A stretch of DNA of 64,000 nucleotides from Physcia stellaris (lineage: Eukaryota > Ascomycota > Lecanoromycetes > Caliciales > Physciaceae), in NCBI GenBank assembly GCA_018902385.1, contig JABSSW010000014.1, positions 310,001-374,000 on the forward strand, in the 5' to 3' direction. A program made the translations under genes and the position numbers. The notes under the pieces were generated by a model, which saw only the letters and a program-made list of their open reading frames with translations, was not told where the DNA came from and did no database searches. Shown here piece by piece: positions 7,051-59,929 of this stretch (the stretch's first letter is position 1; every line of letters begins with the position of its first letter).

Positions 7051-7195
7051 TGTAAAACTAAATGATCAATCAGAAATCGTCAAAAACTTAATAACTAATG
7101 CGCATTTCAATGACATTAAATGTTAAAAATCATGTAAATTAACATTCGATGAAATATCATGCAATTCATGATTTACGATTTCATGCAATTTCACA
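7051..7195 (+). repeat. Copia-A left LTR (mutated copy)
   Basis: 145 bp, starts TGTAAAAC and ends TTTCACA, collinear without gaps with 36648-36792. By eye it differs at 27 positions, all transitions. All fit C to T (either strand) in the left copy; 26 of these Cs are followed by C or T. Confidence 0.9.
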
Positions 7196-7271
7196 ATTAT
7201 GAATTCGAATCACGTTTAATTGTTGCATTTAATACGTGATTTATTTGATTATCAATATTTTCAACATTTGA

Positions 7272-9053
7272 TTGTTTCGACAAATTAACACGAAAAATCA
7301 AAACATCGCGAAAACATTTTCTTGTTTACATTTTTTTACAATCAACAACAATCAAAAACTTTTTTTTATTTATTCGTTCGTTCAACACGATGACGAATAC
7401 GAAACGAAAATTCAAATTGAATTTTTTCAAAAATTGAAACGCGTGATTTTCGATCGTACGAATCAAAATCACAAAATATTCGATTTGAAATTTTATCGAC
7501 TTATTCAAAAATACTCGATCAACGAACAAATTTGAATTCGTAAAATTCAATTTTGACACACAACAAAATGCGAATTTCAACGAAAAACATGTTCGATACA
7601 AAATAACGACATCGAAATACAAAAAAAAACTTCAAAATTGAAAAAAACAAAAAAATTTCATGACAAAAATAATCGATCACATTTACGATACAACAACGAT
7701 TACAAATTTCAATTTTATTCAAATCGTTGAAATTTATTCATGAATTGTTTTTCGCGTTTTCAAAACACGTTTTGCATTCATCGATTCGATTAAAAATTTG
7801 AAATTGAAACAAAAATACAATCGTTTGATCAAAAAATCATTCAATCGTCAAAATATCGATGTTTGAATAAACGATTATTTGAAAATGTTGATATTCGTTA
7901 AACAAACGAAAATTGTTGAAATCATCGATAACAAACGAACGTATCGTGATTTTTTACACGCAATCGACAAAATCGCATTTATTTTCGTTGAAATACAATT
8001 ATTTCAATTAAACATCGTAACGAATCACGAAACACAATTTTTCATTTTTATCGAAATTTTTCGTCATCACATGCGCATGAAAAAAATTCGAAAAAAAAAA
8101 CGATATTCAATTCGACATTCGCAATTGACGAATACGAACACACAAATCATTAAAATTTTTTTGACATTTCGTTATTTCGAAATCAAAATCAATTTCGAAA
8201 TTTTTGCATTTGCGAAAAAAAACATTTTTACGACGATTGTTTTTATTTCAACGAAAACATACGTTCAAATGATTTCAAACTGAAATCAAAAATCGTAACT
8301 AAAATAAAAAAAACGAAAAAAATTCAAAAAAAAAAACAAATAAAACAAAATATCAAACGAATTGACGAAAAACGTCAAAAAAAAAAAAACGATAATAACA
8401 AAAACAAAAAAATCGAAATAAAATTTTTGTCGTCATTCACGTCAATGTCATAAAATCGTTTACAAACGATTCGTTTTCGTCAAATTATTTTTTTCGTTCG
8501 TCGTGAATTATGAATTACGATTTCGACATTTACGTGATCAACAACACGATGAAACAACGTTTTCAAAAAACACAAAATTGCACAAACGAATCGAAAATTA
8601 TGTTCGACATAAAATCATTTTTTATTTTGACATATGATCGAATGCGTATTAACGTCGATACGTTCACAAAAAAAAAATCAATGAAATTTTTAAATATTAA
8701 TTACGTATCAGATTTTATGATCAATATCGTCGCGAAAAGTATTTTCGCAAACAAAAAATTGCATTTTAATACAATTCATGAACATTTGCATAAAAACGAT
8801 GTATCGATCGTTTTCGTGTCACGAATGAAAACATATTACGTTTTCGAAAATAATAAATTTGAAAAAATGAACATTTTCGCAATTATCGTGCGACAAAAAT
8901 TTATTTTAAAATGACATCAATTTTTCGTTTATGCGAATAATGACGTCATACAACATTTACAAAAAACAATTGAAAAAATGAAATTTATCAACAAAAATAA
9001 AATGTCATTAATTAACAAATGCGAAAAATGTGCATTTTTTAAAACACATCGAA
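7272..9053 (+). pseudogene. Copia-A gag-like, protease and GAG-pre-integrase remnants
   Basis: Open frames at 7272-7535 and 7879-8283 are unrecognised and sit where gag is expected. The frame at 8510-8914 matches the end of a fungal Copia protease and the start of the pre-integrase domain (pattern ...FMxNIV...LHF...HLHxN...). Just downstream a CxxC motif followed by THR fits the pre-integrase zinc site. The TRIM at 9054 interrupts here. Fossil. Confidence 0.65.
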
Positions 9054-9248
9054 TGTCAGAAATCGTGCCTGGCTAGGAGGATAACAGGTAGCAAAACGAG
9101 GATATTTGATTTAGGGAGCAAATATGTACATGGAGGCCGAATGTCAGAAGTAGGTTGTGGGCGCCAAGCCCTAGATCGCGCTAGTCCCCATATGGACTCC
9201 CGCTGATAAGATAAGCCCCCAACCGAGATCTCAGGCATGCTCGTAACA
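9054..9248. repeat. TRIM left LTR
   Basis: 195 bp, TGTCAG...GTAACA; same-direction copy at 10700-10894. Confidence 0.9.
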
Positions 9249-10279
9249 CTATCCCTTCGTCTCCTTCAAGCTTCGTCCCGAAGCGAATATACCACTTCTC
9301 CTACCGGTCGGCATTGCAAAGGGATCCATTGGCTGTGGCCCAGGTACCTGCCCGGGCATGGCTGGCGCTGGAAGTTCCAGAGCAGATGCGGTAGACGTGG
9401 AGAGGTAAATTCGAAAGCAGGAGATGTGCGAGAAGGAGGAAGGTAGATATATGCGGCGAGAATGAGGACCTTGTTGAGGACCTTGACCGCGGAGATACCT
9501 GCAGATTAGTATGGTGAAACGGCCGATTTCTCAGGGCAAGCAGAAGCAGAAGCAGCAGGGCGGTATCGGTTCCGCGGGCGTATGCTGTTTCAAACTCCTC
9601 GGATTTGGGCTTTTCGAGTCCTTATTAATCGGCGCGTCCTGATTGGCTGCAGGTTCTGGGGCAGGGCAGGGTATTGGCGCATCGACGGCTGGCAAAGGGC
9701 TGCGGAGAAGGCGGGCTGATTTGGCCGGGTAGCGGGCCAATTGACTCGTGTTCTCCTCCTATCCATGCCATTGCTCCCGTATCGCTGCTGATGTAATAGG
9801 TCCACCTCCTAATGGTGTATTGGCTGCGGAGGTGTAAAGAATCGAACAAAACAACGCATGCTTTTGGTGGCCATTGTAGCGGACCCACTGGGTGCCAACG
9901 AAGCGGGCAGGTCGCTGGGGCAGAGGCGGAGCGGAGCGGAACCCAAAATTTTTTTGTTTGGTGTTTTGGGTGTTGGTTTGTTGGTTAGAGGTAGTTGGTG
10001 TGAGGTTGTTGTGTGTGGCTTCTATCCCCCTCTTCAACAAAGCGATGTCCCAACGCTTAAACAAGGAGGCGATTATTGTAGAGGCCATTCGGGGGTAGGT
10101 GGGCTGACTGGCTCGAGGAAGCATGGAGGTCGTCTATTGGCTGAATGCCGACTGATCTCGACGAACAAGGAGGTCGACAATTGACTGTCATTCTCGCAGA
10201 CTCACGGCCATTCTCGCTGGCCCACGATGCGCATAGTGGAAGTGAGGTGCAACCACCGCCTCCAAAGGGAGGACTTCAG

Positions 10280-10490
10280 ACTGGCGGTTTTCTTTTGACT
10301 CGCGTACCCCTACGAGTGATTCGGCGATTTTCTTTTGAACACTCGCGTACCCCTACGAGCGGTGAAGGCTTTGTTTTGACTCGCTCCCCCTACGAGCAAC
10401 TGGCGATTTTCTTTAACTACTCGCGTACCCCTACGAGCATATCTGGCGATCTTATTTAACTACTCGCGTACCCCGACGAGCAACCCACCG
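10280..10490. repeat. five tandem repeats with a CTCG...CGAG hairpin core inside the TRIM
   Basis: The core CTCGCGTACCCCTACGAG or a close variant occurs at about 10299, 10342, 10380, 10420 and 10463, with a spacing of 38-43 bp. Each unit is separated by a stretch like TGGCGATTTTCTTT. CTCG and CGAG are inverted halves, so each core can form a small stem-loop. Function unknown. Confidence 0.8.
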
Positions 10491-10699
10491 AAGCAGGATT
10501 TGGCCGGGTAACAGTTAGTCTCGCTAACCCTGTACGAGAGATCGCTGTGCTGTAGGCAGTGAATCACCGTCACTGCTGGTTGAGGAAATTGCGCTGGAGG
10601 CGTCACCGTCGCAAATTGGCCGGCCTTGTTTCTTTCTACTCGCAGACCGCTTGCGAGTGTGGAGTTTACATCGCCCGTCACGATGGAGATCAAATATAA

Positions 10700-10894
10700 T
10701 GTCAGGGGTCGTGCCTGGCTAGGAGGGTAACAGGTAGCAAAACGAGGATATTTGATCTAGGAAGCAAATATGTACATGGAGGTCGAATGCCAGAAGTAGG
10801 TTGTGGGCGCCAAGCCCTAGATCGCGCTAGTTTCCATATGGACTCCCGCTGATAAGATAAGTCCTCAACCGAAATCTCAGGCATGCTCGTAACA
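10700..10894. repeat. TRIM right LTR
   Basis: 195 bp, TGTCAG...GTAACA; same length as the left copy, no indels, 13 transitions. Confidence 0.9.
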
Positions 10895-10899
10895 TCGAA

Positions 10900-11621: not shown

Positions 11622-11626
11622 ATTAT

Positions 11627-11819
11627 TGAACGAATATGAATGATTGTCATTGCATTGCATGCAATATTATCGAAATTACGTACAAAAATAAATACAATTT
11701 GATTGCGCAAATGTTTTTAATAATAATCGATTTTGACACGTTTCGTTTAATCGATCAATCAAAAATTTTGATTTTATTCGTGTTCATATTTCAATTTTTT
11801 GTCATCGTATTTTTCAACA
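11627..11819 (-). repeat. Copia-B LTR (3' LTR in element orientation)
   Basis: 193 bp, TGAACGAAT...TTTTCAACA, paired with 34186-34378. It happens to stay open in one plus-strand frame, which can mimic Copia-A coding sequence. Confidence 0.88.
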
Positions 11820-11999
11820 TTTTCATTCGATGACAATCATGTTTATTGCATTCGTGAATGCGATTTTCATTGAATTTCAATTTTTGCATTGATTGTGACT
11901 TTCATTGAATGTTAATTCGTGCAACGACGTAATTTTCATTGAATTTCAATTTCTACGTTCATTGATGAAAAAAACACTGAATTTTTCTGATCAGAAAAT

Positions 12000-13205
12000 T
12001 GATTTCGAAAAAAATCATTTTGAATTATTATGCAACAAGTTTGCCCGTGAATTTTTTCAAAAAAATTCCGTGCAAAGCTTCAGGGTTAGGTTTAAATCTG
12101 ATAAGATTGCGAAGATCGATATCCCGCAACTGCTCTGCGATCCCAGCGATTTCGCATCTTGATAGCATTTGCACCCAGTAAGTAAAACATACAAACGAAG
12201 GCTCGTTTTGAAGCTCGAAATGAGCTCTATCCAAATAATCAATAATATCGAAAATCGATCGAGTGCGCATTGAGTTATGATCGAAATCGCATTGAAACGC
12301 TGCAAGCACTGCCGAGAATCGGGCGCAACACACCTCAGCAGGCACAAATTTGGCAACGACGTGATCTTCGAATTCCCAGAACTATTGCGATAATGAATCG
12401 ATTTCGATAATTCTTGAAGCGTTGGAATGCACTCATTCTGTTCTACAATTTCGACTATATGAGTGAAAATCATATGTGTTTGATGATTGGTGTGCAAGCT
12501 GCGAAGCAACTGTACAGGCCACGAAGAGCTGAGCGGAACCTTTCCGCAGGCATTCCAGTTGACGACCTGGCACAAATCTGGCAGACATGAAGTCTTCGAA
12601 GCCGCAAAACTATTGCGACAATGAACCGATTTCTATCATTTCTGCAGCGTTAGAATGCGCTCATTCTGCTCTACAACTTGAGCTAGACAGGTAAAAATCA
12701 TATGAGATTGCTGATTGGTGTGCAAGATGTGAAGTAATTGCACGCTGCTGAAGCGTTTTGAAGTGGTCTTGGCATATGCCCCGATTGGGAACTTGAATTC
12801 TCAATTGGTGAAAGTTATCGGATTTAAACAATCCGGCTTCAGGATTGGCCAGAATTCTTCCCGGTCGATCACCCGCTCTAAGCGATTTTAATGGATATTT
12901 TATTATAGGAAGGTTCTATTCGAGTCTGAACACGATCAACGAATTTTTGTTTTCAATTATAATTTGTCAAATTCGTACAATCGAATCATCATCGTTTTAA
13001 AATGAAAAAAATGACGTAACTTTTATTAAATTCGAACTTTCTTAATATTGACGAAAAAAACATTGATTTTTTCTGATTAAAAAATTAAATTCGAACGATT
13101 TCAAAAAAAATCATTTTGAATCATTATGCAATTCGAATTCGAACACGATCAAGAAATTTTCGTTTTCGATTATAATTCGTCAAATGTGTGCGATTGAATC
13201 ATCAA
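12000..13205. repeat. direct duplication of about 150 bp split by the Helitron-like insert
   Basis: The sequence flanking the Helitron-like insert (about 11,965-12,035 plus 12,919-13,010) recurs uninterrupted at about 13,045-13,205, including a TTTTGAAT(T/C)ATTATGCAA block and a GAACACGATCAA block. The second copy therefore shows the empty site. Confidence 0.7.
12036..12918 (-). mobile_element. Helitron-like insert, short copy
   Basis: An 883-bp GC-richer insert sharing both ends with 16565-18622: left CAAGTTTGCCCGTGAA, right TATAGGAAGGTTCTA. No target duplication; both copies sit between A and T (CAA|TT). A near-perfect palindrome (12049-12068) lies 13 bp from the left end. A|T insertion, no duplication and a hairpin near one end are Helitron traits and place the 3' end on the minus strand. 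The ends (TAGAA... and ...CTTG) are not the canonical TC and CTRR. The interior holds about two copies of a 220-240-bp unit and no gene. The pre-insertion site survives in a nearby duplicate at about 13,123. Confidence 0.5.
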
Positions 13206-13377
13206 CACGTCAACATGAAAAAAACAATTTTGATTATTGAAAAAAATTTAATTGATTTTCGATTTTTTCAATTTCAATTGTTTCACGAATTTCTTGAATT
13301 TATTTTTTGACAATGATTTAATCAAATCATCGATTATCATGTTTGCATTTGAAACGTAATTCAATTGAATCAAATTT
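13205..13377 (-). pseudogene. Copia-B RNase H tail
   Basis: On the minus strand this encodes a segment like YVSNANMIIDDLIKSLSKNKF, matching the conserved Copia RNase H end (SADMVADGLTKPL). It is separated from the rest of RNase H (29,379 onward) by Gypsy-C. Fossil. Confidence 0.7.
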
Positions 13378-13382
13378 TTTTG

Positions 13383-13677
13383 TGTAAAATACGAAATGTG
13401 ACATCAGAAATGTATAATTTCTGATTGATAATTAGATTAATTTCTAAGAAATCAGAAATTCTAATCACTATTTTCTCGTTATATACAAATGTACGAATAA
13501 AAAAAATAAAAAATTTCAATTGCAAATCATTCGATTTGTTGTTTGTTGTTGTATAAAAAAGTGCAAACAACATTTTTTCGAATTCGATGTTTGTTTTGCA
13601 TGTGATCATGATGCATATTTCGATTTTATCGAAATTCGATCATATTTTATGTCGATTTGAATTTTGAATGTTTTACA
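13383..13677 (-). repeat. Gypsy-C LTR (3' LTR in element orientation)
   Basis: 295 bp, paired with 29079-29373 without gaps. Confidence 0.88.
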
Positions 13678-13764
13678 TGCGTTTTTTTTTTAACATCGAA
13701 ATTTTTTGAAATGATCAAAATTTTTTCATTTGTTTTGTAACAGAAATTTCTAAATTTGTATATT

Positions 13765-14446: not shown

Positions 14447-14640
14447 TGTTATGCGTAATGTGTGAATTTATTGATTTAGAAACTATGAACGACAAAATGT
14501 CAATTTATGTACAGTAATTGCGAATCAGTTGTCTGATCATCATTCATTTAATATGAGATGACGACAGAATTCTTGTCAAAAGTCATGTCAGAATATTTGA
14601 TCTAAATTCATATCATCTAATTTGATTTTGTGTTATAACA
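14447..14640 (-). repeat. Gypsy-D LTR (3' LTR in element orientation)
   Basis: 194 bp, the less mutated of the pair. Confidence 0.88.
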
Positions 14641-14866: not shown

Positions 14867-16567
14867 TCATCTGACTAGATATTGAATTACGAGAATTTTG
14901 TTGTATTTTCTAGTTCGTTTTCCGATTAGCTTTTCAATTTCATAAAACTTGTACTGATTCGTATCGTTTTCGATTTCAATGAAATCAGAATAATGAAAAC
15001 GCGAACGATTGTAAAAATCAATTTCGACAAATGTTGATTCGAGCTGTGCAATAAACACAACGAAATAAATTCGTTATGTTGATGACAATTTCAATCTGTA
15101 CGCGAAACGTTCGATGCGTTCAAGAATTCGAAATGATTCACAACGTTGTTGAAAGAATTTCGAATTTGATTTGTCAAACAACTTGTAATCTTTGTTGAAT
15201 TGTAAATAAATTTTTTCATCTTGTTTTAATCGAATAAAAATATGACGCGAATCATAGTATATTTTGATTTTGACAGTCGCAAAATTCGTGACATCGACAG
15301 TTTTTCGTTGATATTTCATGCGTTGAATTGACAAATTCTGTATTTTTGTTGTGTTAAATGCGATTAGATTTGATATCGCGTTTCTGATTTTGAATTCGTA
15401 TATGATTTCATTGAGTGATAAATTTGTAACGATGTTAAACGTGTTGTTTAGTTGCGATTGAATTGCAAAAAAAGTTAAAATGTAATCGATGTTCGAAAAT
15501 TCGATGACGAAATATCTGATAACAATTTCAACAATTTGATTGATTCGTTTTGACGAGTCATTCGTTTGCGAATGATATGTTATTGAAATTAACAATTTCA
15601 TGTTTAATCTGATGAAAAATATTTGTCAGAAATTCGACATGAATTTTGAATCACGATCGGAAATTATAATTTCAGACATTTTTTAATCGACGATTAATAA
15701 TTTGTTCAATAATGCGTTGATTCATTTTTTCGTTTCATAAATGTTTTTGTCGAAAATCAATAAGACTCGACGAGAGTGTTTACATGTTGCGAACATAACA
15801 ATGTTCATTTCGTCGAACATAATTAAAATAAAATCAATGACAATGATATGAAACGAACGCGAAACGAATGTAATAGACATGAATTTTTCGTACGATCGAT
15901 GACGTTTGATTTGTGTCAACTGACAAATAGAACAATGCTCGATGTATTTTTTAATTTTTCGCGAAAATCGAAATATGTATAACGTACTGAAAATTCTGTC
16001 ATAACATCGATGAATTTCTGAATGCTGATTCGTATCGTGAACTAAACGAAATATTTCGCGTTTCACAACAACAAATATACACGATCGACGCGTGTCAATG
16101 TCAACATGATATATAATGTCATTCGTATTCAACGCGAAATTGATTTTTGTTTTGAGTTTTTTTGATATAAATTTCGTATCGTCATTTTTTTGCTCATTGA
16201 CGTTTCGTTTCGTTACGTTGTTTCCGAGCGACGACGAGATTTGAAAGTTTCGAATCGACAGATTTTGTTTTTTTTCGTGCATTCGAATCGTCAACGATTT
16301 TAACATCGTGATTATGTTTCGTCACGTCTTTTCGTTCTGATATTCGTTTTTGATTTTCTTTTTCAGATTTTTCGACATTGCGATAAAAATGCTTTGAAAA
16401 ACGTAACAATCGAAATTATTCGAAAAATCGATTATTTCATCATGATATATGTTCAGATCAAGTCTATTTTCTGAATTTTTGTCGATTTGTTCATTTTCAG
16501 AAATTAATTTTGATAGCGCATTCGAAACAACATGATTTTTTCTTGATTTATATTTCATTTTCAACAA
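14867..16567 (-). pseudogene. Gypsy-D chromodomain-like end, integrase and RNase H end
   Basis: 14867-15058 ends in a chromodomain-like YEIEKLIGKRTRKY...IQYLVR. 15074-15601 is integrase core and C-terminus (YHSQTNDSSKRINQ and a proline-free relative of the GLSPNEIIYG motif). 15722-16306 carries the HHCC zinc site (YIEHCSICQ) and start of the core. 16322-16567 matches an RNase H end (VVSNALSKL). Chromodomains in such integrases are known to steer insertion to heterochromatin. Fossil. Confidence 0.8.
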
Positions 16568-18622
16568 GTTTGCCCGTGAATTTTTTCAAAAAAATTCCAT
16601 GCAGAGTTTCAGGGTTAGGGCTAATTCGCATATCAGCAGGCACAATTTTGGCAGCGGAGTAATCTTCAAAGCTTCAGAACTATTGCGACCATGAACCGAT
16701 TTTTGTCATTTTTGCAGCATTGGAATGCGCTTATCTTGCTCTACAATTGTAGCTAGATAAGTGAGAATCATATGTAGTGGATGCTTGGTGTGCAAGTTGC
16801 GAAACATCTGTACGGGCGCATTGCATTTTTGATGGTTGATGAAGACCCTGATCTAGACTCAATGAGGAAACAGTGCCGCAAAGGTGAAACGGGGGGCCTC
16901 GGGGGCCTCGTGAGCTCGAAGATTGACCTCGAAATCGAAGCAATTTGACAGCATCTTCGAACCATGATATGGTTCCTATTGAGGATTAGTGCATTAGGGT
17001 TTGAATCGAGCCTTTGCCCTAATATCGTCCATTCTGGACTCTATGTACATTCGGTGGCTTCTGGAGACTGCAAAATGATTTTTTCTTTCGTAGGCCTCCA
17101 ACAACGCCCTCAAGCTGGGATAATTTGACCGTTCTCGAAGGAGCGAGACCATATCAGTCATATCGTCCTGCAATTCGCGATACATCCGTGATTTGAGGCC
17201 AGAGAAACCCTCCCTTTTGAACAATCGTCTCATTTCGTGTTCGAAGAATTCCTGTACAAAATCATCGAGTCTCCATTCTTTACCCTTCTTGAATCGTTCT
17301 AGAAACATTCAATCAACATTGATATCGTCTTGCTTGACCTCAGACTCGATAGTTAATCGATTCGATTCAATATAAGACCGAATCTCCCTTATCATAGCAT
17401 TTCCATCGCCGTTGTGATAAGTCTTCACGTATGATCTTCCGCAATGCCGTGTAGCGTCAGGAAGCATGACCTTCAACAAATGATCCCGAATGCTGTTGTA
17501 TCGAGTCTTCTTGATTCGTTGAAACCTCAGTAGCTCAAATTGATCATCGATGCTCATTTTTAACCACTGTTCGTCCTCCTCGCGAGAGTCCTCCTGTTTG
17601 TATTGACATAGCGTTCTTAATCGACTTCTCAAAGGTCCCTTAGTTTCCGAGATATCCATGGTAGGACGGCGAGTTGAAAAGGGAATCTCATGATGTGCGC
17701 TGGCGTTCTTCATATCGTAGGTGTATTGCACGACGTTGTGTTCATCGGCAGGCTGTTTATTGACAGCGAAAGTAGGCTTTCGTGAAGGCGGATTCCAGGA
17801 GGAAAAGGAGGAGGAGGTGGAGGAGGTGGAGAAGATAAGTTGAGACCGAGACTCGAACATCTGCTGCTGTTGATGTTTCTCACGCATTTGTCGCTTTTTC
17901 GCGTGTCTAATGGCTTGTCCCCGCGATCGAGCACTGCCAGATAGGCCAAAATCGAGGAGACCTTCCATATTGAATATGCTGATAATGGGGAGTAGAATGC
18001 AGTCTGATGAGTAAACAAATGCGTGTAAAGCACCTGAATTACACCTCGGCAGGCACCTGGGCAGCATATATGTAAGCCGAAGATCTTAAATACATCATAA
18101 CTTCCGCGATAATGTACCGATTTTAGCAATTCTTGAAGCGTTGGAATGCGCTCACTCTGTTTCACAATTTCGATGCGCAAAGCTAGTGACTTTATGCTGT
18201 TGTTGGTTGGTGTGTAAGGAGCGAAGTAACTGTACAGCATTGAAGCATCAAGTTTTGAGGTGGTCTTGGCGTATGCCTCGATTGGGAACCTGAATTCTCA
18301 ATTGGTGGAAACATCGGATTTAACAAATGGCCCTGAAAAAGACCCTGATTTGCGGAAGCGCCTTGGCAGACTCGAAAACCTCAATACTTCTGGACCTCAT
18401 AACATAGTCAATACTACTCGGATTTTCTTGATTTCTGGTGCGTTGAAATGCGCTTGAAAAGCGCTACAATTTTAACCCATTTCATGTGTGCAGTGCATAG
18501 TGGGTGGTGGTGGACGAAAGTGCAGAAGTTTTGATGTTCGGACCCTGAAAAGTTGACTTCCCGATCCGGCCAGAAACTCCTGTTAGGGAGTGTTCAGGAT
18601 ATTTTGTTATAGGAAGGTTCTA
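16565..18622 (-). mobile_element. Helitron-like insert, long copy, inside Gypsy-D RNase H
   Basis: 2,058 bp with the same ends as 12036-12918, the same palindrome near the left end (16578-16597), insertion between CAA and TT and no target duplication. The outer 300-400 bp on each side match the short copy. The centre is unique and holds an unrecognised gene remnant (16994-17968). Normal composition inside AT-rich DNA indicates late arrival. No Rep/helicase gene is present, so it would be non-autonomous. Confidence 0.5.
16994..17968 (-). pseudogene. unrecognised gene carried by the Helitron-like insert, one in-frame stop
   Basis: From ATG 17968 (MEGLLDFGLSG) a frame of 219 codons reaches a TGA at 17309-17311 and continues in the same frame for another 104 codons to 16994. 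The product is charged: a basic/Gln-rich N-terminus, a Ser-rich stretch (about residues 45-60) and an Arg/Lys/Glu-rich helical C-terminus. I recognise no domain. The TGA directly precedes an ATG, so it could be two ORFs, but uninterrupted similarity of style suggests one protein with a premature stop. It is absent from the short copy, so it may be a captured host gene fragment. Confidence 0.45.
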
Positions 18623-18629
18623 TTTAAAT

Positions 18630-23719: not shown

Positions 23720-23773
23720 AAAATGATGTCGTTTTGTTTACGTACAGATCATCGCTTGAATGATACTATCAAT

Positions 23774-23967
23774 TGTTATGCGTAATGTGTGAATTTATTG
23801 ATTTAGAAATTATAAACGACAAAATGTCAATTTATGTACAGTAATTGCGAATCAATTGTTTGATCATCATTCATTTAATATGAAATGACGACAGAATTTT
23901 TGTCAAAAGTTATGTCAAAATATTTGATTTAAATTCATATCATTTAATTTGATTTTGTGTCATAACA
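23774..23967 (-). repeat. Gypsy-D LTR (5' LTR in element orientation)
   Basis: 194 bp, gap-free match to 14447-14640 with 11 transitions. Confidence 0.88.
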
Positions 23968-25600
23968 TTTTTAAGATGTTTGATCATTGAAACGAATTTT
24001 CAAATGCGTTTTTCGTAGTTTTTTCATTGAACGAAATAATAAAATTTTGACTCATTATATGATTTGTTCGAAATTTAATTTTTTTGTAAATTTTGTTGTT
24101 TAAAATGATTTCGATTCAATATTTTTCATTGATGAATTTTTCGTTTTTTTCGATGTCGATGTCATTCGATTGATACGTAAATTTCAACGAAATTTTTTTT
24201 TTTTTTTTTAAATATGATTTTTTCGAACAACGAAACGTGAAAAACATTGTGAATTCGTCAACGTTTGAATATATTTATGCGATATGTTTGATTTTTTATT
24301 GTATTCAATATTTTGAATAATTCGAAAAATTTTCATTTTAATTTTTTGTTGCGTTTGATACGAATATTTTTGACGTTGACGTTGACGTAATTATTTACGT
24401 CGAAATTCATCAATTTGATTTTTGCATTTTTGTATTTGATTTGTTGTTTCTGAACGTAAACTAGATTGATTTTCAGTATTTTCATCAATTCGATCAACTT
24501 TTCGACATGTTTTTTAGCAAATTTGAATTTAATTTTAAAATTTGCAAAATTTTCGAAAAACATTTTGAACGTGTATTTTTGCATCGTTTCAAACGATGAT
24601 ATTTGCGTGAACGCATATTTATTATTGTTATAAACAAATTCAATCATCGACAATAATTTTATTCAATCATTTTGTTCGAAATTGACATAAATTTTGAAAT
24701 ATTGTTTCATGATTGAATTTTGTCGTTTCGTTTGATCATTTGTTTGCGAATAATAAATCGTGAATAATTTCAATTTTATTTTCAAAACATAACACAAAAC
24801 GTCATGATATTTAACGATAAAAATCGAATTTTTGTTTGTTGTTATCGACGACGAAAAATCATGAAATTTAATGATTTTTCGAATTAAAATTTCGACGAAA
24901 TTTTTTGCGATCATCGTTTTCGTGATTGAAATATAATGTGTCATTTTGATCAAACGATTTATCACGACGAATATTGCATTATACGTCGTTTCATTTCATG
25001 TTTTGTTTTTTGAAAAATTTGTTACGAAATTCATTGTAAAATTAACTCATTTGAATTTCGATATAGAAAAAAACGAAAGTTTTTCATATGATTTGTGACG
25101 AAATGTTTTGTTTTTTTTGCAAATTGCACATGTTTCGCAATATTTTTTTATTTGTGTTCGCATGTTCGAATCGTGTTCGACGTTTTTTTCGAAATTGTTT
25201 CGTTTTTGATTAAATCAATAATATTTTTTTCGTATCAATTCGAAAATACGTTTTATTTCGAAATGATCGACGAAAAAATTGTCATGATTCGTTTTTATGA
25301 CATTTTTTTTCAAATTTGACGAAACGTACAAACAATCATCGTGTCACAATATTTTTTTTTCGTTTTGTCAATGCGAATGTGACATATCAAAAATAATTAA
25401 TTTTTGTTTCATTTGAATCGCGCATGGATTTTGATTTAACAATAAACGTATCAATTCGACGAAATTGTCAATGATTTTATTGTCGTATGCAACATCATGT
25501 TCGTGAATATGTTTTTTTGCAAACATTTCGTTGATCGATTGAAAAATCGTTACATTATTCAATATTAATATTTTTCATTCATCGATGATCACGTTTGATA
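23968..25600 (-). pseudogene. Gypsy-C integrase remnant
   Basis: 24333-24653 and 24663-24965 are integrase core and C-terminus (YNNNKYAFTQISSFE, YYSQTNDQTKRQN). 25368-25562 fits the upstream zinc-binding part. The chromo-like tail reaches the Gypsy-D insertion. Fossil. Confidence 0.75.
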
Positions 25601-26199
25601 CACATTTTTGAAAATCAAAAAAATCATTCGCAAATTTGTTTTTTTCATTATTGAGTTCGAACATCGTTGCTTTAATTTCGCTCACGCAAATTTGAAATTC
25701 GTTCGAAATCGATTACAAAAATTGTCGCAAACGCGTCAAAATTTGATGATTGTTTTCAATTTTTTTTTTAATTGTGATCATATGATCAAATTGTCGAAAC
25801 AAATCGTTTGCAAAATTCTTGTTGTCAAAACGATAATCGATGACGAAATTGTAACGAAACAATTTTTGCGTTCATCGTATTTGTCGAAATGATAATTTCG
25901 TTGTAATCATAAAACGATTGAGATTTCGATGATTCGTCAAAACGAATATTTGTTTTTTCGTTTTTTCGAAATAGTGACGTCATTGTTTGAATGCGAAAAT
26001 TATAATTAAAAGTTTTTTGTCGTGAATTTCATAATTACATTTCGTTGAAATCATTTTTTTGAAAAAATAAATTATTGAATGTCAATGATTTTGATCGTTT
26101 GATTGACAAAAAATTTCATTTATTGTTTTGTTCGAAACGTCGATTTTCACACGTATGAATTTAATCGAATCGAAATGTTGCAAAATAAATGTTTTCAAA

Positions 26200-28003
26200 A
26201 ATGCATTTCGTAAACGTTTGAAAATTTCGTAAATTTCGAAAATCAAAAAATCATTCGACAATCGTTTTTTGTTGTGATTTTTGTTTCGATTTTTGTTCGA
26301 ATTACGTTTTCGTTTGATTTTTTTTTATGAAATTTTGTTGATTTTTTTAGCATTGAAATTAAAAATAATGTCAATTTATTGAAATTTTTGATGAATCGTC
26401 TATAGAAATTGCACAATTCAAAAAATTTCAAAATTTCTGACACGTTTCTGAAAATCGATCATTTTTATATGATTTCGATTTTATTTTTTTGCATTTGTAT
26501 TTTTTTTGAAAATACAACGAAATTTAAAAAATCAATGTTGTTTTTGAAAAATTTACATTTTTTCATATTGATGAAAAATTTGTGTTTTCGCAAACGATTT
26601 AAAATTCATTTGACGTTTTCGATGTGTTGTTTTTCGTTTATAAAATATATGATTATATCATTTAAATAAATTATAACAATAAAATCGAATCGTTCGATCA
26701 AAATTTTATTGATAAAATTTTGAAACGTCGCAAATGCATTAATTAAATCGAAAAACAAAACGATATATTCAAAATGCTCATATCGTGTTTTGAACGTCGT
26801 TTTTCACTCATCATCTTTTCTGATACGTAGTTTATTGTATGCTGCTATCATATCAAGACTTGTATAGATGCGAATCTTGTTCAGACGATTTAGACTTTCA
26901 TCGATTAACGACAAAAAATATTTATTTTTAATCGTCAAGAGATTCAAGCTTCTGTAATTCACACACAATTTCAGAGTTTCGTTTTTTTTCTTGACGAACA
27001 GAATTGATGCTTCGATTGAGAAAATGAAAAATCTGATAAAATCGTTCTTGAAATGTTTATTTAAATAAGTTCGCAATATTTTGAGCTCGTTTTCTGACAA
27101 TGAATAGATGAAATCATAAAAAAACTTCTTGTTTGATTTCAAATCAATGACATGATCGTTTGATTCATGATCAAATAATTCGTATGTTTTGTTTTCATTT
27201 GTCAAATCAGCGAATTTCTTTAAAATTTCGAATATGATGATTTTGATATTTGATTTATTTTTCATTTTCGCGAAAGTCGAATCAATTTGTGCTCGTCGTT
27301 CGATGTGAACGTTATTCATGTTCGTTTTTTCGTCACGAAAAACTCGTACGAACATGACGAAATTTTGTTTCTTGTCATCGACGATAGCGTTGACTAGTTC
27401 TTTTGACTCGATTTTCTCGATACGATTTACGATGAAAAAAATTGATTTTACAATCAATGATCACGATTCGATTTTATCGATGTTTCAATTTATTTTTGCA
27501 TTTGATAATTGCATTCATGACAAATTTAACGTCATATTTCAAATTAAATTCGTTTTTACGAAATTATCATTGAAAAAACGATTCACATCGTTTTCGTTTT
27601 GCATTTCGAATTGCACGAAATAAACGTCATAAATTTTGAAAAAATGATTATCGATAATCATTGTTTCGCAATTAAACACGTTGAATGATTTTAATTCGAA
27701 TTGTTTAACAAAAATATTATTTATCAAATTGATTTTTGTTTTTGAATTCATGATTGTTTCGAATTTTAATTTGTTTTTTTCGTTTGATTTTTTATTTATT
27801 TTGATCATTGTTTTTTTGCATTTAGTCATGCGAAATTTTCTTCGACGACGTTTGACGTTTTTGATTTCGATATCGATCGTGAACAATTCATCAAAATTAA
27901 AATCAATTTCGTCATTTAGTATAAAATTTTTCATTGTGTTAATTTGATTGAAAATCATCAAATCGATTATTTTTTTGATTTCGAATCGAATGCTATTTTT
28001 CAT
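26200..28003 (-). pseudogene. Gypsy-C protease, reverse transcriptase and RNase H remnants
   Basis: 26804-27457 is an RT N-terminal half with LCVNYRSLNLLTIKNKY and YTSLDMIAAYNKLRI. 26243-26443 fits the RT-RNase H connection (LCNFYRRFIKNF). 27539-28003 is in protease position. Fossil. Confidence 0.8.
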
Positions 28004-28116
28004 GTATGTTTTTACGACTTTTTATTTTTACAATTTTTGAAAATACAATTTGATTTGTCGCAATTTTTGCATTTATTGTTGTTCACAATATTTTTGAATT
28101 CATTTTTGATTCAACG

Positions 28117-29078
28117 TCATAATTTTTTGAATTTGATTGATTTTTGATTAAAATTATCAGATTTGAATTTTTTATCGTTTTTTTTTTTACGATTTTTGTT
28201 GAATCGAAACTGATTATTATTTTTTTTTTCGTCGAAGTTTTTTTCGTTTTTTTTGCGCTTATTATAATCGTTTTTAAATTTATTTTTGTTTAAATTGCGT
28301 TGTTTTTTGTGCTCATTATTCTTTCGACATTTGAAACGTTTCAAAATTTCATTTTTGTTGTTTTCGATATTTTGTTTTGCAAAAAAGTTTTGATTGTTTT
28401 GAATGAAATTCAAGATGAAATTCTGTAATTTTATTGCAAATGAAAATTTCATGATAAAATGTAAATTCGCAACGAAAACAATACGATAAATATCGTAATT
28501 TCGTATTGATTGATTGATTCGTTGTTTATAAATTCTATATTTTTGAAAATTGTTTTTCTTTTTAGTGAAGATTTTTTGAATGTTTTTTTTGAAAAAGTCA
28601 ACATATTTTTTTCATGTATATTTTTTATTTGAATTGTTTTTGACTTTAACATTTCACAACAATTGAACATTAAATTTTCTTTTCAAAAAAATGACGACAA
28701 AAAAAAAATTGATTTTGTTTGAATTTTCGACGTATTCGTTCGTTTGATTTATGTCGAATTGATTTTTCATTTTTCAAACGTATTGAATTCATTTTTTGTA
28801 ATTGTTTTCTGAGAATAGATTTGATTTGTCGCTCATTACTTTGATGTAAAATGACTTTTTTTTGAAAATTGATGAAATGACTCGATTGCGTAATATTTCA
28901 TATCGAGCAATTTGTTGTTGAATATATGTTCGATATTTCTGCGAAATGACGTCTGATTTTGAAAAATCAAAAATCGATTCATTGATGTTCGTGAAAGAAA
29001 AAAAAACAAACATGCTGTTGATTTGATGTGTTGTATACACGAATGATGTTAATTTGATGATTATGATAGAAATTAAAA
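28117..29078 (-). pseudogene. Gypsy-C gag remnant
   Basis: 28117-28452 is a Lys/Asn/Arg-rich nucleocapsid-like segment. 28449-28670 and 28789-29103 lie in gag position next to the 5' LTR. Low sequence specificity after decay. Fossil. Confidence 0.5.
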
Positions 29079-29373
29079 TGTAAAATACGAAATGTGACAT
29101 CAAAAATGTATAATTTCTAATTGATAATTAAATTAATTTCTAAGAAATCAAAAATTCTAATCATTATTTTTTCGCTATATACAAATGTACGAATAAAAAA
29201 AATAAAAAATTTCAATTGCAAATCATTCGATTTGTTGTTTGTTGTTGTATAAAAAAGTGCAAACAACATTTTTTCGAATTCGATGTTTGTTTTGCATGTG
29301 ATCATGATGCATATTTCGATTTTATCGAAATTCGATCATATTTTATGTCGATTTGAATTTTGAATGTTTTATA
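29079..29373 (-). repeat. Gypsy-C LTR (5' LTR in element orientation)
   Basis: 295 bp, followed by target copy TTTTG, after which Copia-B RNase H resumes. Confidence 0.88.
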
Positions 29374-29378
29374 TTTTG

Positions 29379-30697
29379 ATACAAATTTTTAATGTTGTGA
29401 TAAATCACATTAATGTGTTTTGATTGTTCATGAATATGTGCGTCTTTGATCAACAAATTGACGATTTGATTATTTTTCAAAAATTGTATTAATGAACAAA
29501 TTTCATGTTTATCGTTTTGAATGATTGCTATTTGATTCAATTCGATTTCAAAATATTTGATGAAATTCAAATCACGAAAAAATTGTGTTATTCATAATTT
29601 TTTTTAACGCATGTCGATAAAATTATATATTCGATTTCAATGATTGAAATAACGATCGATTTTTGTTTACGATTCATTCACGATATTGATTTTTCAACGA
29701 ACATGTAAACGTATTCGAAAATCGATTTTTTGTTTAATTTATCGATTGCGTAATCAAAATTCGAATAAATTTTGATTTTGAAATTTTCATTGTTGTTCAA
29801 TTTCAAATCGTATATAAAATTTAAATCGATGATCGATCGAATATAACGAAACAAAATTTTCATTGTTTTATCGTGATGTTTCGCAAAATTATTGAAATAT
29901 TGACTTAATCGTTTTAATACGAAAACTATATTTGAACGAATATGTATGACAACATACATGAATTTTTCAATTTTGTGTTGATAATTTTTTGAATCAATTC
30001 GTTCGTCGTTCGATTCAATTGATTTGAATGAATCGTAATCGTTCATGAATAATTTCGTGCGTTCGTGTTTATCGATATTCATATGCAATTCATTCAATAT
30101 TTCGTTCAAATAATAAATTTGATTTAATCGAATAATTCGTTTTTTACGATCGCGAATGATTTTAATGTCAAAAAATTTTTTCATTTTTTTCAAATTCTTG
30201 ACTTTGAATATTCGTTTGAATTCATTTTTGAATCAATTGATTTGCTCGTTGAATTTGACGACAACAAAAATGTCGTTCACGTAAAAAAACAATATGATTT
30301 TTCGTTTTTTATGACGAAATATGCAAAAATCAATCGAAATCTGTTCGAAATTCAATTTATGCAATTTTTTCACGCAACGCTCGTGTCAATTTTTAATTGT
30401 TTGTTTCAATTCATAAAAATTTCGACGAATCAAAAATGTTTGTTCAAAAAATAAATTCACGTCGAATAACGATTTCATGTAAATTATTTTTTTTAAAAAT
30501 GATTTCGTGAAAATATTGTTGACGTTTATTTGATAACATTCGAAATTTTTCAACGCAACGATAACAAAAAACAGACGAAAAATATCGAATTTGACAATTG
30601 AAACAAAAATATTTGTATAATCGATTTCATACATTTGCGAAAAATCTTTTGTAACGAATTTGATTTTTAATTTGTTCAATGTATCATTCACATGCAT
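29379..30697 (-). pseudogene. Copia-B reverse transcriptase and RNase H remnant
   Basis: 30386-30697 is Copia RT (KFVTKDFSQMYEIDYTNIF). 29678-30193 holds the RT end and link to RNase H (SQYFNNFAKHHDKTMKILFRYI). 29379-29570 is RNase H up to the Gypsy-C insertion. Fossil. Confidence 0.8.
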
Positions 30698-30899
30698 TTT
30701 GATTTTGAATATTCATTTATTGATGACGATATTGACGTTTTTCGATAAAATGACAACGTTTCAAATTTCATTGATTATTAACGTTGTCAATTCGATTTGA
30801 ATAATTTTAAATCAAAATTTGTTTCAAATAAAATTATTGACGATTTTTTGATAATTTTCGAATACAAATATGATTAATTTTTCAACGAATTGTCGATTT

Positions 30900-32280
30900 G
30901 TTTTTTTTGTTATTACAAACAAAATTCATTCATCATGTTTGCACATATCGAAATTTTCGATCAAAAAAATTATCATAACGCGTGCAATTTTGTTGCGATG
31001 TTCATTTCGTTTTTTTTCATTCGTGATATTTCGTTTGCGTTTGAAAATTGTCACGTGAAAAAATTGTTGTATCATGCGTGAAAATTTGATAAAAAATGTT
31101 AATTTAACGCGCGTTTGAATTGTCGATTTTGTCGTAAACTCGTTAATTTCGTTTTTTTCATTCGATGTATCGATGAATTCATTATCGTTTTTTTTTGTGT
31201 GCATTGATTGAATTTTTTTTTGTTTTTCGAAATCATCAACGCAACAAAAATCGAAATTTTCGCAAAAATTGATGCAACAAAAATTGATGTAAACGTCGAT
31301 GTCATCGAAACGATTACAAATGCAATAATTATTTTGCGTAATTTTTCGACAAATCGTTTTTCAAATAATTCGTTCATCGTAATCGTAAACAAATTCAACG
31401 ATTCATTTTTTCATTTTTCATATTCAAAAAACATTATTTTGTGATATTTGATAATATCACGACGATCGAAAATTCATATTTTGTATTGAATTGTGATGTT
31501 TTCGTCATAATTCATGAACACGTTCGATTTTTCTGTATTGACGAATTTATTTTTTTTATTTTTTTCAAACAATGATTTGATATCAACGAACGAATAACAT
31601 TTGCATTTTCAAATACGTATGTGATTTATCGACGATTTAATACTTGTTCAAATTTCAATAGAATTTGTTGAATTGTCGTCGATTATTGATTTCGTGTTCA
31701 TACGATTGCGAACATATATATTTGTTTTTTTTGTTTCAAATCAAAATTTTATAAACAATTTTGCATTTTGAATCATTGTTCGAATTTGATTTTCGAATGT
31801 TTTTATGACACGTTTTATTACATCGTTTTGAATGAAATTATACGAAACGATGTATTGTGAAACAATGTCGATAAATTCGCATCAAAAATCGAATATAAAT
31901 TTCAATTTTTTGACGTTGTTATAACGTATTGTTTGTAATTTTCGTTGAATTTTTAATTTCATTTTCAATTTTCATTTGTTGAAAATTTCAAAAACATCGA
32001 TTCGTTTGCGAAAAAATAAAATTCACGTTCGTCGAAAATGATTATTCACGATTTTTAAAAAATATTCGTAATCGAATTTTGAAACAAATAAAAATTCGCA
32101 AATATCAATAAATATCAATTTCAATATATGAGTTTTGCGTTCGATTAAACGACGATTATGTGCATTAATTATTTTCGTAATCGCATATATTTTACATAAA
32201 TCGTTGCGATTTTCGACGATAAAAATCGATTTGCGTAAAATTGTGATTTTGTACAAATTTCGAAATTTTGCAAATTTCAT
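30900..32280 (-). pseudogene. Copia-B integrase remnant
   Basis: 32023-32280 matches a Copia integrase N-terminus (KIYAITKIINAHNRRL, IDICEFL). 30926-31398 is the low-specificity spacer between integrase and RT. Fossil. Confidence 0.65.
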
Positions 32281-32298
32281 ATGATCAAAACGTCGATG

Positions 32299-33473
32299 TC
32301 ATAATTCGTATAAATCACGTTTTTTTTGATTAACATTTGAATCAATATTTGAATTAACATTTGAATCAATATTTGAATCAACATTCGATGATTGAAAATC
32401 GATTTCGATATCATTTCGAAAATCAATATTTGTATCGAACAAAATTTCGTTCGAATTCACGATTGTTGACATTGCAAATGAAACAAACAAAATTTTAAAA
32501 AATTCAATTGCAAACATTATGTTATTCGTTAACAATACGTATTTTTTAAATTTTGATGTAATTTTGTTTATTATGTAAATATTTTTTTGAACGAATGTTC
32601 GAAATATTTCAACGTTTTGTTTATTGCGCATGAACAAATTATCGTCATTGAAATTTTTTATTAAATTTTTTTTGATAAAATGTTTGTCGAATAAAAAATT
32701 GACGTCGAAATTAAATACATAAAACATTTTCGTTAACGTGTTTTTATCATTTTTGACGCGTATCGTCATTGAATCACATTGATTTGAATACAATTTTTTT
32801 CGATTTTGATCGTGCGTTTTTTAATCGATTTGAAAAATTCATTAAAAAATCGAAAATCGTCAATCATGTGTAACGAAACGTCGATATTTGCAATTCATAC
32901 GAATTTGAAAAATTTATTGATCAATTTTTTTGACAAAACGACGATTTTTTTCATATCGTTTTCATTGTTTGAATCGATGTCGATGTCGAAATTAAAATTG
33001 TTGTTAAACGAAAAAAAATTTGCGACGTTGTACGTTTTATGTTTTTTGTTTTTTTTTTTATTTTTGATTGTAAACAATTTTTTGATTTGTTGTTTTTTTG
33101 TTCATTTTTTTAATGTTTTCAAAAAATTGCATTCGACGATTCTGTGTGAATCGTCACAAAAAAAACAATTTTTAATTTTTTTCGTCATGATTTTGAAACG
33201 ACGACGAAAATTTTTATCAAAATTAAAAAATCGTCGTTGAAATATGCGATACGATTGACGACGATTGTTTTTGATTATTAACGTCGATTCGACGATTTTG
33301 TTCGCAATAAATTGTTTTTTTTTTGTTTGCAATTTTTGAATAAATTTATCGACATCGAAATTGTTTTGTACGTCGATTGCATCACGAATGACATCGTATT
33401 CGACAAACAAAAATGTTAAAAATGTTTGAAAACGACGTTTTGATTTGAACAAATTCATTATATTTGATTGCAT
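32299..33473 (-). pseudogene. Copia-B protease and gag zinc knuckle
   Basis: 33102-33473 ends in CFFCDDSHRIVEC, a CxxC...HxxxxC nucleocapsid knuckle. 32299-32793 fits the protease-pre-integrase span and ends with a short tandem repeat of Asn/Ser/Asp. 33,474-34,185 holds only decayed leader sequence. Fossil. Confidence 0.7.
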
Positions 33474-34185
33474 ATTTGTAATTTTGCAATTTTTTTGATG
33501 ATATCGATATAAACGATTTCAATGATTACGTTTGAAAACTTTGTGTAATTTATAAATTTTTGCAACAATTGTCGTTCAATTGTAACAAATTTTTGTTTGT
33601 ATTTGTTGACAAAAATTTTTCAAATTTTTTTAACAATTTTCAATTTCGTCATCAATTTTTGATCATCGTTATCGATACATTCGATGAATTGATATTGTGT
33701 TTTTGCGTCGAATTTTTTTTCAATTTTTTTTTCATCAAAATTCAAATCGACATTTTATTTTGATTTTCGAAAATTATTCGACAACAATTTCGACACATAA
33801 TTTGAATCGACGATTATTCAAATTTTTTCGTCGATAAATCATTGTTTTATTAATTTGAATCATTTTTCGCAATTTTGACGAATGAAAATATCGCAAACTC
33901 GACGCGCATTGAATTTATTGAATTCGAAATCGTTCATAATGCGTGATATGATATGTAAATATGTAAATTTTTTTTATTTGTTGTATTTCGTGAAATATTT
34001 TTACAATCGTTCGTTCATTCGTTGAATTAATAATCGAATTCGAATATGTAAAACATTTTTACAATTTTGACGCGATCGAATCGATGAAACATTTTCATTA
34101 TTGTTTGATTTTCGTGATTTCGTGATCGAACGATTGACGTTAACAATCACAAAAAATTTATGTTAATTCGAATTTCATAATTTAT

Positions 34186-34378
34186 TGAACGAATGTGAAT
34201 GATTGTCATTGCATTGCATACAATATTATCGAAATTACGTACAAAAATAAATACAATTTGATTGCGCAAATGTTTTTAATAATGATCGATTTTGACACGT
34301 TTCGTTTAGTCGATCAATCAGAAATTCTGATTTTATTCGTGTTCATATTTCAGTTTTTTGTCATCGTACTTTTCAACA
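34186..34378 (-). repeat. Copia-B LTR (5' LTR in element orientation)
   Basis: 193 bp, TGAACGAATGTG...TTTTCAACA, followed by target copy ATTAT. Confidence 0.88.
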
Positions 34379-34383
34379 ATTAT

Positions 34384-36500
34384 CGTTTTAACGAATTAAA
34401 TTTAATTCAATTCGTCAACGAATTTTTTTTGATTAACGATACGTTTGACATATCGCAAAACGATTTCACGAAAATAATGAATATCGAATCAAACAACGAC
34501 GAAAATGTATGAAAATTAACATTTACAAAATTTATTATCGATCGCGATACAAAAAAATTTCACAAACAAACGATTAAAAACGATTTTGAATCAAAATATT
34601 TATTTTTATTTGTTTCATTTTCGTCAAAAAATGAAAACACGTCAAATACGTTTGATTTTTCGTATTTTTCGTTACTTGTCGTTACAAAAAATTTCTCGTC
34701 ATTTGTCGTTGCAAAAACAATAAAAAAATTATTTTCGTTTGCATCGTCGTTGAAAAAAAAAATCGAAACATTGAACGAAAACAACGATTGACGAAATCAA
34801 TATTCAATTTGAAAAATTTATTCGCATTCGCAAATCAAATTCGTTTCGAAATTTCAATCATTATATTGTTTTAAAAAATGCATTCGCAAAAAAAAATGCG
34901 TTCATTTTATGAAACATTCATGATTTCAATGACGAAAAAAAAAAATCGCATCGTGACGATTTTTTCGTCGAATCACGTTTTTATTATCAAATGTTTCAAC
35001 ATTTTGAAATCGTCGACTTTTTACGAATCATTGACGTGAAAATCAAAACATTACAATCAAAACAAATTTGAAAAAAAATTTCATGAAATTATGTCAAACA
35101 AACAAAAAAAAATTTTATATTTATCACATGAATATTCAAATACAAATTCGACAACGAAAAATATTTGATAAAACACAAAATTCGATTGTGTGTTCGAAAA
35201 AATTTTCAACAAATCGAACAAAATGTTTACGCAATTACATTAATTATTAAAATTTTTCGAACATTAATGATTATAATTACAATTTTCGATTTGAATATTC
35301 GTCAATATGACGTAATCAATGCATTCGCAAATAACGATATCGACGAATTCATTTATTGCAAATCGTTTGACGATTGAAAAAAAACAAACAATATGTTATT
35401 TTTTTTATTGAAAACATTATACGAATTGAAACAGTTTTTAACATTATGATATCGACATTTGTCGATTACTTTTAACAATTTAAATTTAAAACAAATATTC
35501 GACATCGAATGTTTATTTATCAATGATTACATGATTTTATTTTTTTTCGTGAACGATATAACAATCATGTATTATTTTCAGTATTTTAAACAAGTTGACG
35601 TTTTCGAAAAAAAACTTTTCGAAATATACGAAATGAAAAACATCGACGAAATCGAATGATTTTTCAATATTCGCATTACACGCGATAAAAAACAACAAAC
35701 AACGTCGTTTTGTCAAAACAATTATATCAACAAATTCATCAACAAGTTCAACATTGACATGATTAAAAAAAAATCAAAATCATTTATATTCATTCATATT
35801 TCGATGATAAAAAATGAAAATAATGTTATTTTTCAAAAAATTCATATGTATCAACAGAAAATCGAATCAATCAATTTCGTTACAACAATCATTCGATCAA
35901 ATATGATCGTTGTTGCATCGTTATTATTTGAATATTTTACGAATTCATTTAAACATCATGCGAAACAAACGATTCGAACGTTAAAATATTTGACATACAT
36001 CAAATATTACGTCATCGTTTACAAAAATCAAACAAATTATATAATTTTCATTTTTTTAATTTCGTCAAATACGTCATTCGCAAACGATTTAAACATTCGT
36101 CAAAATTCAAATGAATATTGTTTTATGTTTTTCGACAATTTCATCGATTGAAAAATCACAAAACAAAAAACAATTACAATTAATTTCATCGAAATCGAAT
36201 TGTTGATCATGTCAATGACGATCAACATCAAAATATGATGAAATCGTTTTTTTGAATCAATATAAATGAACATAAAAAAATTCATTTATATTCAATGCGA
36301 TAATCGTCAAATTATACGAACGTTTATTATATTAACGATCAAATTAATCATTAAATTACGTCATGTCGATATACATCGTCATTGATTACGTCAAAAAATG
36401 CAAAAAAACACAATCAACATTCAATGAATTTTTACAGCGAGTATTTTGATCGACGATTTCATCAAAATTTTATCATTTCAAAAGCAAAAAACATTCGTGA
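34384..36500 (+). pseudogene. Copia-A reverse transcriptase and RNase H remnant
   Basis: RT motifs at 35165-35377 (IRQYDVINAFANNDIDE) and 35459-35659 (decayed YVDD region, then KLFEIYEMKNIDEIE). RNase H and its approach lie at 35759-36151 and up to 36,500 (IQCDNRQ...LRHVDIHRH). Plus strand, same family half as 8.5-11.6 kb. Fossil. Confidence 0.8.
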
Positions 36501-36647
36501 AGCTGATTGATTTGAAATCTATTTCGATATCAGATTCGAAAGAAAACGACGAATTCGATCAATCAAAAATCGCATAGATCGCATCGAAGAATAAAATAAA
36601 ACATCAAGAGTAGGACGAAATATCAGATATTTTTTCCTAAAGGGGTG

Positions 36648-36792
36648 TGTAGAACTAGATGGCCAATCAGGAGCCGCCAAGAGCTTAGTAACTAGTGCGC
36701 ACTCCAATGACATTAGATGCTAGAAACCATGTAAATTAGCACTCGATGGAACATCATGCAATCCATGATTTACGACTCCATGCAGTCTCACA
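36648..36792 (+). repeat. Copia-A right LTR (nearly unmutated copy)
   Basis: 145 bp, starts TGTAGAAC and ends TCTCACA, followed by target copy TCCTC. It keeps normal GC and all CpC/CpT sites that the left LTR lost, so it serves as the ancestral sequence. The AT-rich decay fades over about 200 bp just inside it (36,440-36,640). Confidence 0.9.

Positions 36793-57039: not shown

Positions 57040-59929
<2,890 letters not shown>

Follow-up and report, generated by a model that had tools for sequence, protein, structure and literature searches.

C-to-T decay of LTR retrotransposons in Physcia stellaris, with CpC the most and CpA and CpG the least affected contexts

Repeat-induced point mutation (RIP) and related C-to-T signatures in fungi differ in the base that follows the mutated C. 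The papers cited by accession were available to us in part, and what is said of them holds for those parts. In Neurospora crassa the order is CpA>CpT>CpG>CpC, while in Trichoderma reesei CpA is about equal to CpG, followed by CpT>CpC (PMC5496416, one sign missing in the text). Fungal C-to-T signatures at CpA, CpT and CpG vary by species and are associated with DNMT1/RID subclasses, and transposable elements with a CpT signature occur in Magnaporthe, Botrytis and Sclerotinia, where involvement of a RID motif was suggested (Amselem 2015, PMC4352252). High CpT has been reported for some N. crassa and S. nodorum repeats (RIPCAL, PMC2621366), CpT to TpT is dominant in alignments of RIP-capable fungi in an Ascomycota survey (PMC7882544), and both CpA and CpT are affected in Anisogramma (PMC10998396) and CpA in Zymoseptoria (PMC4522978); further papers deal with rRNA pseudogenes (PMC5555474), Monilinia (PMC8959702) and deRIP (PMC3017866). 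Here we describe 64,000 nucleotides from Physcia stellaris (contig JABSSW010000014.1, positions 310,001 to 374,000; this whole stretch is called the window), in which nested long terminal repeat (LTR) retrotransposons carry C-to-T changes mainly at CpC and CpT. An earlier reading of the same letters by a model, the original prediction, had proposed RIP-like decay with a reversed context, and its statement that Neurospora RIP prefers CpA and least likes CpC agrees with the published order.

The best explanation, to which we give a probability of about 0.6, is that a RIP-like mutator directed at repeats inactivated these retrotransposons by C-to-T changes, targeting CpY (Y, C or T) in the order CpC>CpT>>CpA>=CpG. 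On this reading CpC changes at about four times the rate of CpT, whereas hits at CpA are rare and none are detected at CpG. The responsible enzyme would probably be a methyltransferase of the RID family whose target recognition has changed, and the species-varying signatures tied to DNMT1/RID subclasses are a precedent for altered preference (PMC4352252); no methyltransferase family was found among the 40 open reading frames (ORFs) of the window that were scanned. The decay shares with N. crassa RIP the C-to-T changes on both strands, an apparent concentration in repeats, the drop in GC and the control by the 3' neighbour, but the order is inverted and few new stops arise. RIP in T. reesei likewise makes C-to-T changes in duplicated DNA but has a different context order. 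The CpT-signature elements share mutation at CpT, but there it occurs with CpA, and no CpC signature was found in the available text (PMC4352252). The RIP-like bias in Penicillium (Talaromyces) marneffei is possibly the same phenomenon, CC/GG, CpA and CpG tables for it not being found in the text available. In Rhizoctonia solani AG8, CpC has the shortest mean spacing among four CpN classes of single-nucleotide polymorphisms, but these are uncorrected for site number and not transposon-centred, and the authors discuss a CpG bias (PMC4014442). No description of a CpC-first RIP was found in the literature searched, which did not cover the Clutterbuck 2011 survey, nor was relevant CpC content found in the available parts of PMC5602860 and PMC8865532; novelty is uncertain.

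Nested terminal repeat pairs were found by self-comparison of the window and are listed here without strand.

7051–7195: outer element, left LTR; CpY-to-TpY change nearly saturated; TG..CA ends; target duplication TTCTC
36648–36792: outer element, right LTR; target duplication TCCTC
9054–9248: young element L5, left LTR; 6 derived changes; target duplications TCGAA/TCGAA
10700–10894: L5, right LTR; 7 derived changes
11627–11822: L2, left LTR-like repeat, from self-comparison; no clean end found
34186–34381: L2, right LTR-like repeat, from self-comparison
13383–13677: L3, left LTR; target duplication TTTTG
29079–29373: L3, right LTR; target duplication TTTTG
14447–14640: L4, left LTR; target duplication CTTTT
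23774–23967: L4, right LTR; target duplication TTTTT, one CpT change from CTTTT

The two LTRs of an element are identical at insertion, so that their differences record later mutation. Four pairs (outer, L3, L4 and L5) have TG..CA ends, the end of one L3 copy being changed, and 5-bp target duplications, while a target duplication of L2 was looked for and not found. By these features the outer repeats are a genuine LTR pair, and the target duplications of the outer element and L4 are themselves each one C-to-T apart, at CpC and CpT respectively. The outer pair differs at 27 of 145 positions, all by transitions, with C or G always in the right copy, so all changes are derived in the left one and none in the right, which the original prediction had called near-intact. 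Its counts by context were also reproduced exactly: 10/10 for CpC, 16/20 for CpT, 1/26 for CpA and 0/8 for CpG, i.e. CpY 26/30 against 1/34 for C followed by a purine (CpR; Fisher p = 1e-12).

A tabulation of all LTR pairs, which the original prediction had proposed for the whole genome, was carried out within this window. The five pairs, LTR or LTR-like, show 68 differences, 67 of them C:G/T:A transitions and one a transversion; the mutations are present on both strands, as had been claimed and as is the case in RIP. The pooled counts are CpC 21/44, CpT 37/76, CpA 9/157 and CpG 0/74, the difference between CpA and CpG alone not being significant (p = 0.06), and the CpC information comes from the outer pair and L5, since L2–L4 have no CpC sites remaining. 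Before this table was made the alignments were trimmed, L3 by 1, L4 by 5, L5 by 9 and L2 by 4 positions, and the positions removed contained 3 transversions of L5 and 1 of L4. By its behaviour the proposed mutator resembles RIP, but the classic CpA preference was not seen (9/157), and its membership in RIP is unproven. Decay of methylated CpG is ruled out by the 0/74: the CpG depletion expected from deamination of 5-methylcytosine (of the Masc2 or methylation-induced-premeiotically, MIP, type) is absent, and CpG in the block is at the level of the genes.

The role of the neighbouring bases bears on the possibility that a cytidine deaminase, APOBEC/AID-like or another fungal one, edited retroelement DNA. 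The polynucleotide deaminases known so far are guided chiefly by the 5' neighbour. At the CpY sites of the outer pair and L5, all four 5' classes were hit (A 9/17, C 4/24, G 11/27, T 15/24), in agreement with the earlier claim that the 3' neighbour decides, unlike in APOBEC-type editing, and the 5'-neighbour targeting expected of such editing was not found. A deaminase would account for C-to-T changes concentrated in retroelements, and the lower rate after a 5' C in the pooled counts (4/24, though in L5 alone it is 4/23 versus 9/39) and the first four hits of the left L5 copy, which lie on one strand, are in its favour. However, both strands are hit and the two L5 copies carry separate hits. 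Control by the 3' neighbour disfavours APOBEC-like editing, and we regard a deaminase as quite improbable. No effect of the 5' base on CpT is claimed: in the block counts it is confounded by changes to a 5' G itself.

An early stage of the decay can be seen in L5, a GC-rich LTR element of 1.84 kb (195-bp LTRs, TCGAA target duplications, no frame >124 codons) that is small and non-autonomous and landed in DNA that had been mutated before. Its LTRs show 13 differences, all transitions, on both strands: CpC 11/34, CpT 2/28, CpA 0/24 and CpG 0/18 (CpC versus all else, 2/70, p = 6e-5; versus CpT alone, p = 0.026). In a run of four Gs the three preceded by G were changed and the one preceded by A was not. 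Since the early hits are mainly at CpC, the CpC-first order is visible early and not only as an end state, and since each copy carries derived changes of its own (6 and 7), the changes post-date insertion.

The depletion is also visible in the composition of the window. Gene-like DNA of ~48–50% GC occupies 1–6.9 kb and 36.8–59.8 kb, and AT-rich DNA about 7–36.6 kb, with GC-richer inserts, and 60–64 kb. The mutated regions and the inserts, again without strand, are the following.

6944–36612: main mutated domain; three unmutated inserts break it up, and five isolated CC/GG lie outside them
25427–36612: longest stretch free of CC/GG by dinucleotide count, about 11.2 kb
60208–64000: second mutated block, retaining about 3% of CpC and about 42% of CpT
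9054–10894: unmutated insert, the young element L5; keeps CC/GG
About 12044–12913: unmutated insert; keeps CC/GG
16573–18617: unmutated insert within L4, between its reverse transcriptase and integrase pieces; keeps CC/GG

The original prediction had placed a block of uniform texture at 7051–36792. The block is real but runs from about 6944 to 36612; its core is depleted as described, but the three inserts keep CC/GG, and about 11% of CpT survives in the core, so it is not absent. Without the inserts the main domain holds five CC/GG in 24913 bases. The core (20.0–36.4 kb) contains no CC and 1 GG, where base composition predicts about 237 and 300, and 125 CT and 121 AG, where it predicts 801 and 750 (about 16%), while CpA/TpG and CpG (127 and 56.5 per kb) are about level with the gene flank (138 and 53). 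The second block has the same signature and lies outside the coordinates given before.

Candidate rules were then applied in simulation to the window's own genic DNA. Changing CpC always and CpT at 90%, the latter value chosen by us, gives a GC fraction of 0.256 against 0.255 in the block, with CA/TG at 138 against 127 per kb, CG at 53 against 56.5 and TC/GA at 137 against 135. A Neurospora-like rule fails, leaving CC/GG at 51 and CA/TG at 10 per kb. The block is AT-rich, transposon-dense and gene-poor, as would be expected if ordinary ultraviolet (UV) damage or general neutral AT-biased decay had acted on old heterochromatin. UV would be expected to mutate TpC as well, but TCA and TCG are abundant. 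A context-free rule taken to a comparable GC keeps 28.5 CC/GG per kb versus 0.1 observed, and the five pairs contain a single transversion. Trinucleotides and simulation thus reject both, and this explanation is scarcely credible.

The usual RIP indices (TpA/ApT up, CpA+TpG down; thresholds from PMC8959702) flagged 0/59 overlapping 1-kb windows of the block. A CpY index, (CC+GG+CT+AG)/(TC+GA+TT+AA), stands at 0.030 in the core, compared with 0.900 in the gene flank. Species with a CpY process may consequently have been counted as lacking RIP.

Exposure was calculated by region as –ln of the residual fraction. The CpC:CpT ratio is about 3.5 at 13–16.2 kb, 3.9 at 20–30 kb, 4.2 at 60.3–64 kb and 4.8 per copy in L5; 7.2–9.0, 10.9–12.0 and 30–36.4 kb give no ratio, having zero CC remaining. 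This near-constancy suggests one activity. Such an activity could also be CpC/CpT methylation of silenced repeats (MIP-like or DIM-2-like) followed by slow mitotic deamination of 5-methylcytosine, without an active premeiotic mutator. The base change would be the same, saturation fits long exposure, and ascomycetes with RID and DIM-2 usually have slightly higher or equal non-CG compared with CG methylation (PMC7862722). On the other hand, 0/74 CpG and 9/157 CpA across differently loaded pairs would demand an equally unusual methylation specificity, CpY-only methylation was not found reported in the partly available literature searched, and CpC has disappeared almost entirely with little change elsewhere, which has the appearance of a directed process. 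We consider this explanation unlikely, but it deserves weight.

The distribution of the changes bears on what was damaged. The mutated DNA consists of LTR-retrotransposon blocks with abrupt edges, the final CC/GG on the left being at 6942 and the first on the right at 36613, and the genes adjoining both blocks retain CC. Since a cytosine preceding Y is a guanine following R on the other strand, the sequence by itself does not distinguish a cytosine mutator from an O6-alkyl-guanine-type lesion at 5'-RG-3' that mispairs with T and goes unrepaired in silenced repeats. The temozolomide signature SBS11, tied to O6-methylguanine, is C>T at CpC and CpT as found here, but is drug-induced, occurs in tumours and is not transposon-directed (PMC12556801). 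Alkylation mutagenesis is expected to be independent of locus, whereas here it would have to be restricted to transposons, within edges defined to about 100 bases, and to have converted almost every CpC while adjacent genes keep CC. We know of no localised alkylation process, and such damage is a very improbable cause. A repeat-directed defence mutator that acts on purine-preceded guanine through an enzyme making O6-alkyl-type or similar lesions is a further but highly unlikely reading, and to our knowledge no such chemistry is known for RIP. Overall, reversed-context RIP-like decay is partly supported, namely by the base changes, the sharp-edged confinement to LTR-retrotransposon blocks and the same CpC-first order in L5.

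If a RIP-like mutator is responsible, a newly inserted element would be recognised as repeated DNA, and a cytosine methyltransferase with modified target recognition, from the RID/Masc1 (or DIM-2) family, might then act at CpY, the context seen in the LTR pairs, on either strand. The change would be fixed as T over repeated rounds, to give the observed end state with CpC gone and CpT nearly gone, of which L5 presents the early state. Long frames could stay open while Gly, Pro and Trp codons are lost, so that the proteins would die mainly by missense. The following coding remnants were found in the block.

15722–16321, minus strand: mutated gypsy-type integrase piece in L4 (Integrase_H2C2; Pfam E 6.5e-10)
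19207–19626, minus strand: piece of a mutated reverse transcriptase in L4 (RVT_1; Pfam E 1.4e-6; score of 28.6 bits, slightly under the cut-off of 29.6)
26804–27460, minus strand: mutated Ty3/gypsy-type reverse transcriptase piece (PDB Ty3 reverse transcriptase 4ol8, E 1.3e-9)
30386–30712, minus strand: mutated copia-type reverse transcriptase piece (RVT_2; Pfam E 9.9e-9, above cut-off)
29678–30232, minus strand: mutated copia-type reverse transcriptase piece (RVT_2, weak; Pfam E 0.0013, below cut-off)

A match to SH3_Tf2-1 among the ORF pieces of the block was below the curated Pfam cut-off. The minus-strand RVT_2 matches at 29.7–30.7 kb lie inside L2, and the outer element's plus-strand ORF at 35660–36151 has no Pfam match; the name Copia given earlier to the outer element was not confirmed. 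In the alignment to Ty3 reverse transcriptase, prolines of Ty3 are substituted in the block piece, which supports the C-to-T polarity. In all 39 ORFs of at least 90 codons outside the inserts, 5237 codons include 1 Gly, 0 Pro and 0 Trp, compared with 6.5, 6.0 and 0.8% in eight gene ORFs of the window, and an initial count on 16 hand-picked pieces agrees with this unselected one. The disappearance of CC/GG entails this result, which therefore adds no independent evidence. Given the genetic code, the CpY rule can turn only Trp codons into new stops. Applied in full to these eight gene ORFs, it gives 0.8 stops per 100 codons, versus 5.1 under a full CpA rule, and removes all Gly, Pro and Trp codons. 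If the proposed mutator exists, the mode of inactivation is changed accordingly, from stops to codon loss, and inversion of target choice is possible for the RIP machinery, which would offer a natural contrast for mapping the determinants of that choice.

Several observations weigh against the repeat-directed mutator or its calibration. The domain departs from the limits of the repeat: its left edge lies about 107 bp beyond the outer left LTR, so that this flank is mutated, yet on the right it ends 35 bp inside the outer element, sparing the right LTR and the preceding 35 bp. The ancestral base was assumed to be C throughout, and the gene flank served as a stand-in for the original composition of the transposons. 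The three unmutated inserts look like later arrivals, but a target duplication backs this for L5 only. Four older non-LTR repeat comparisons (tr1–3 and D6) show mixed substitutions without the rule, and CpG changed at 5/16 sites in tr1; these were omitted from the final table for their 17–23% divergence and many transversions.

Left of the main domain the CC/GG density is somewhat reduced already from about 6.4 kb. At the edge of the second block (59790–60207) there are 14 CC and 1 GG, as if a single strand had been mutated, and at 17201–17600 there are 25 CC and 1 GG, both regions being chosen post hoc. Strand patchiness was dropped as a claim, a gene-flank window showing a similar opposite skew (4 versus 69). 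The two unmutated inserts other than L5 have a diverged repeat family in common (12017–12832 and 16546–18328, pieces about 72–83% identical), the ORFs of which gave no convincing Pfam match. A 16-base match of an LTR to a viral contig was treated as chance.

The genes of the window include a beta-1,3-glucanase, a GMC oxidoreductase, a PigL_N protein and a Prp43-type helicase, and by our judgement they suit a filamentous ascomycete. No relative of the Prp43-type ORF turned up in collections of prokaryote genomes and of viruses, and neither Rfam nor tRNA scans of the window gave a hit. At 46322–48580, in DNA of normal CC content, the minus strand carries ORFs, of which that at 47870–48580 has an Integrase_H2C2 zinc-binding domain; this is a transposon-derived, or possibly a domesticated, integrase-like gene that escaped mutation. 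The beta-1,3-glucanase-like frame at 52184–54223 has one in-frame TGA at 53297–53299, beyond which the Pfam match continues, and which is either within an intron or a premature stop.

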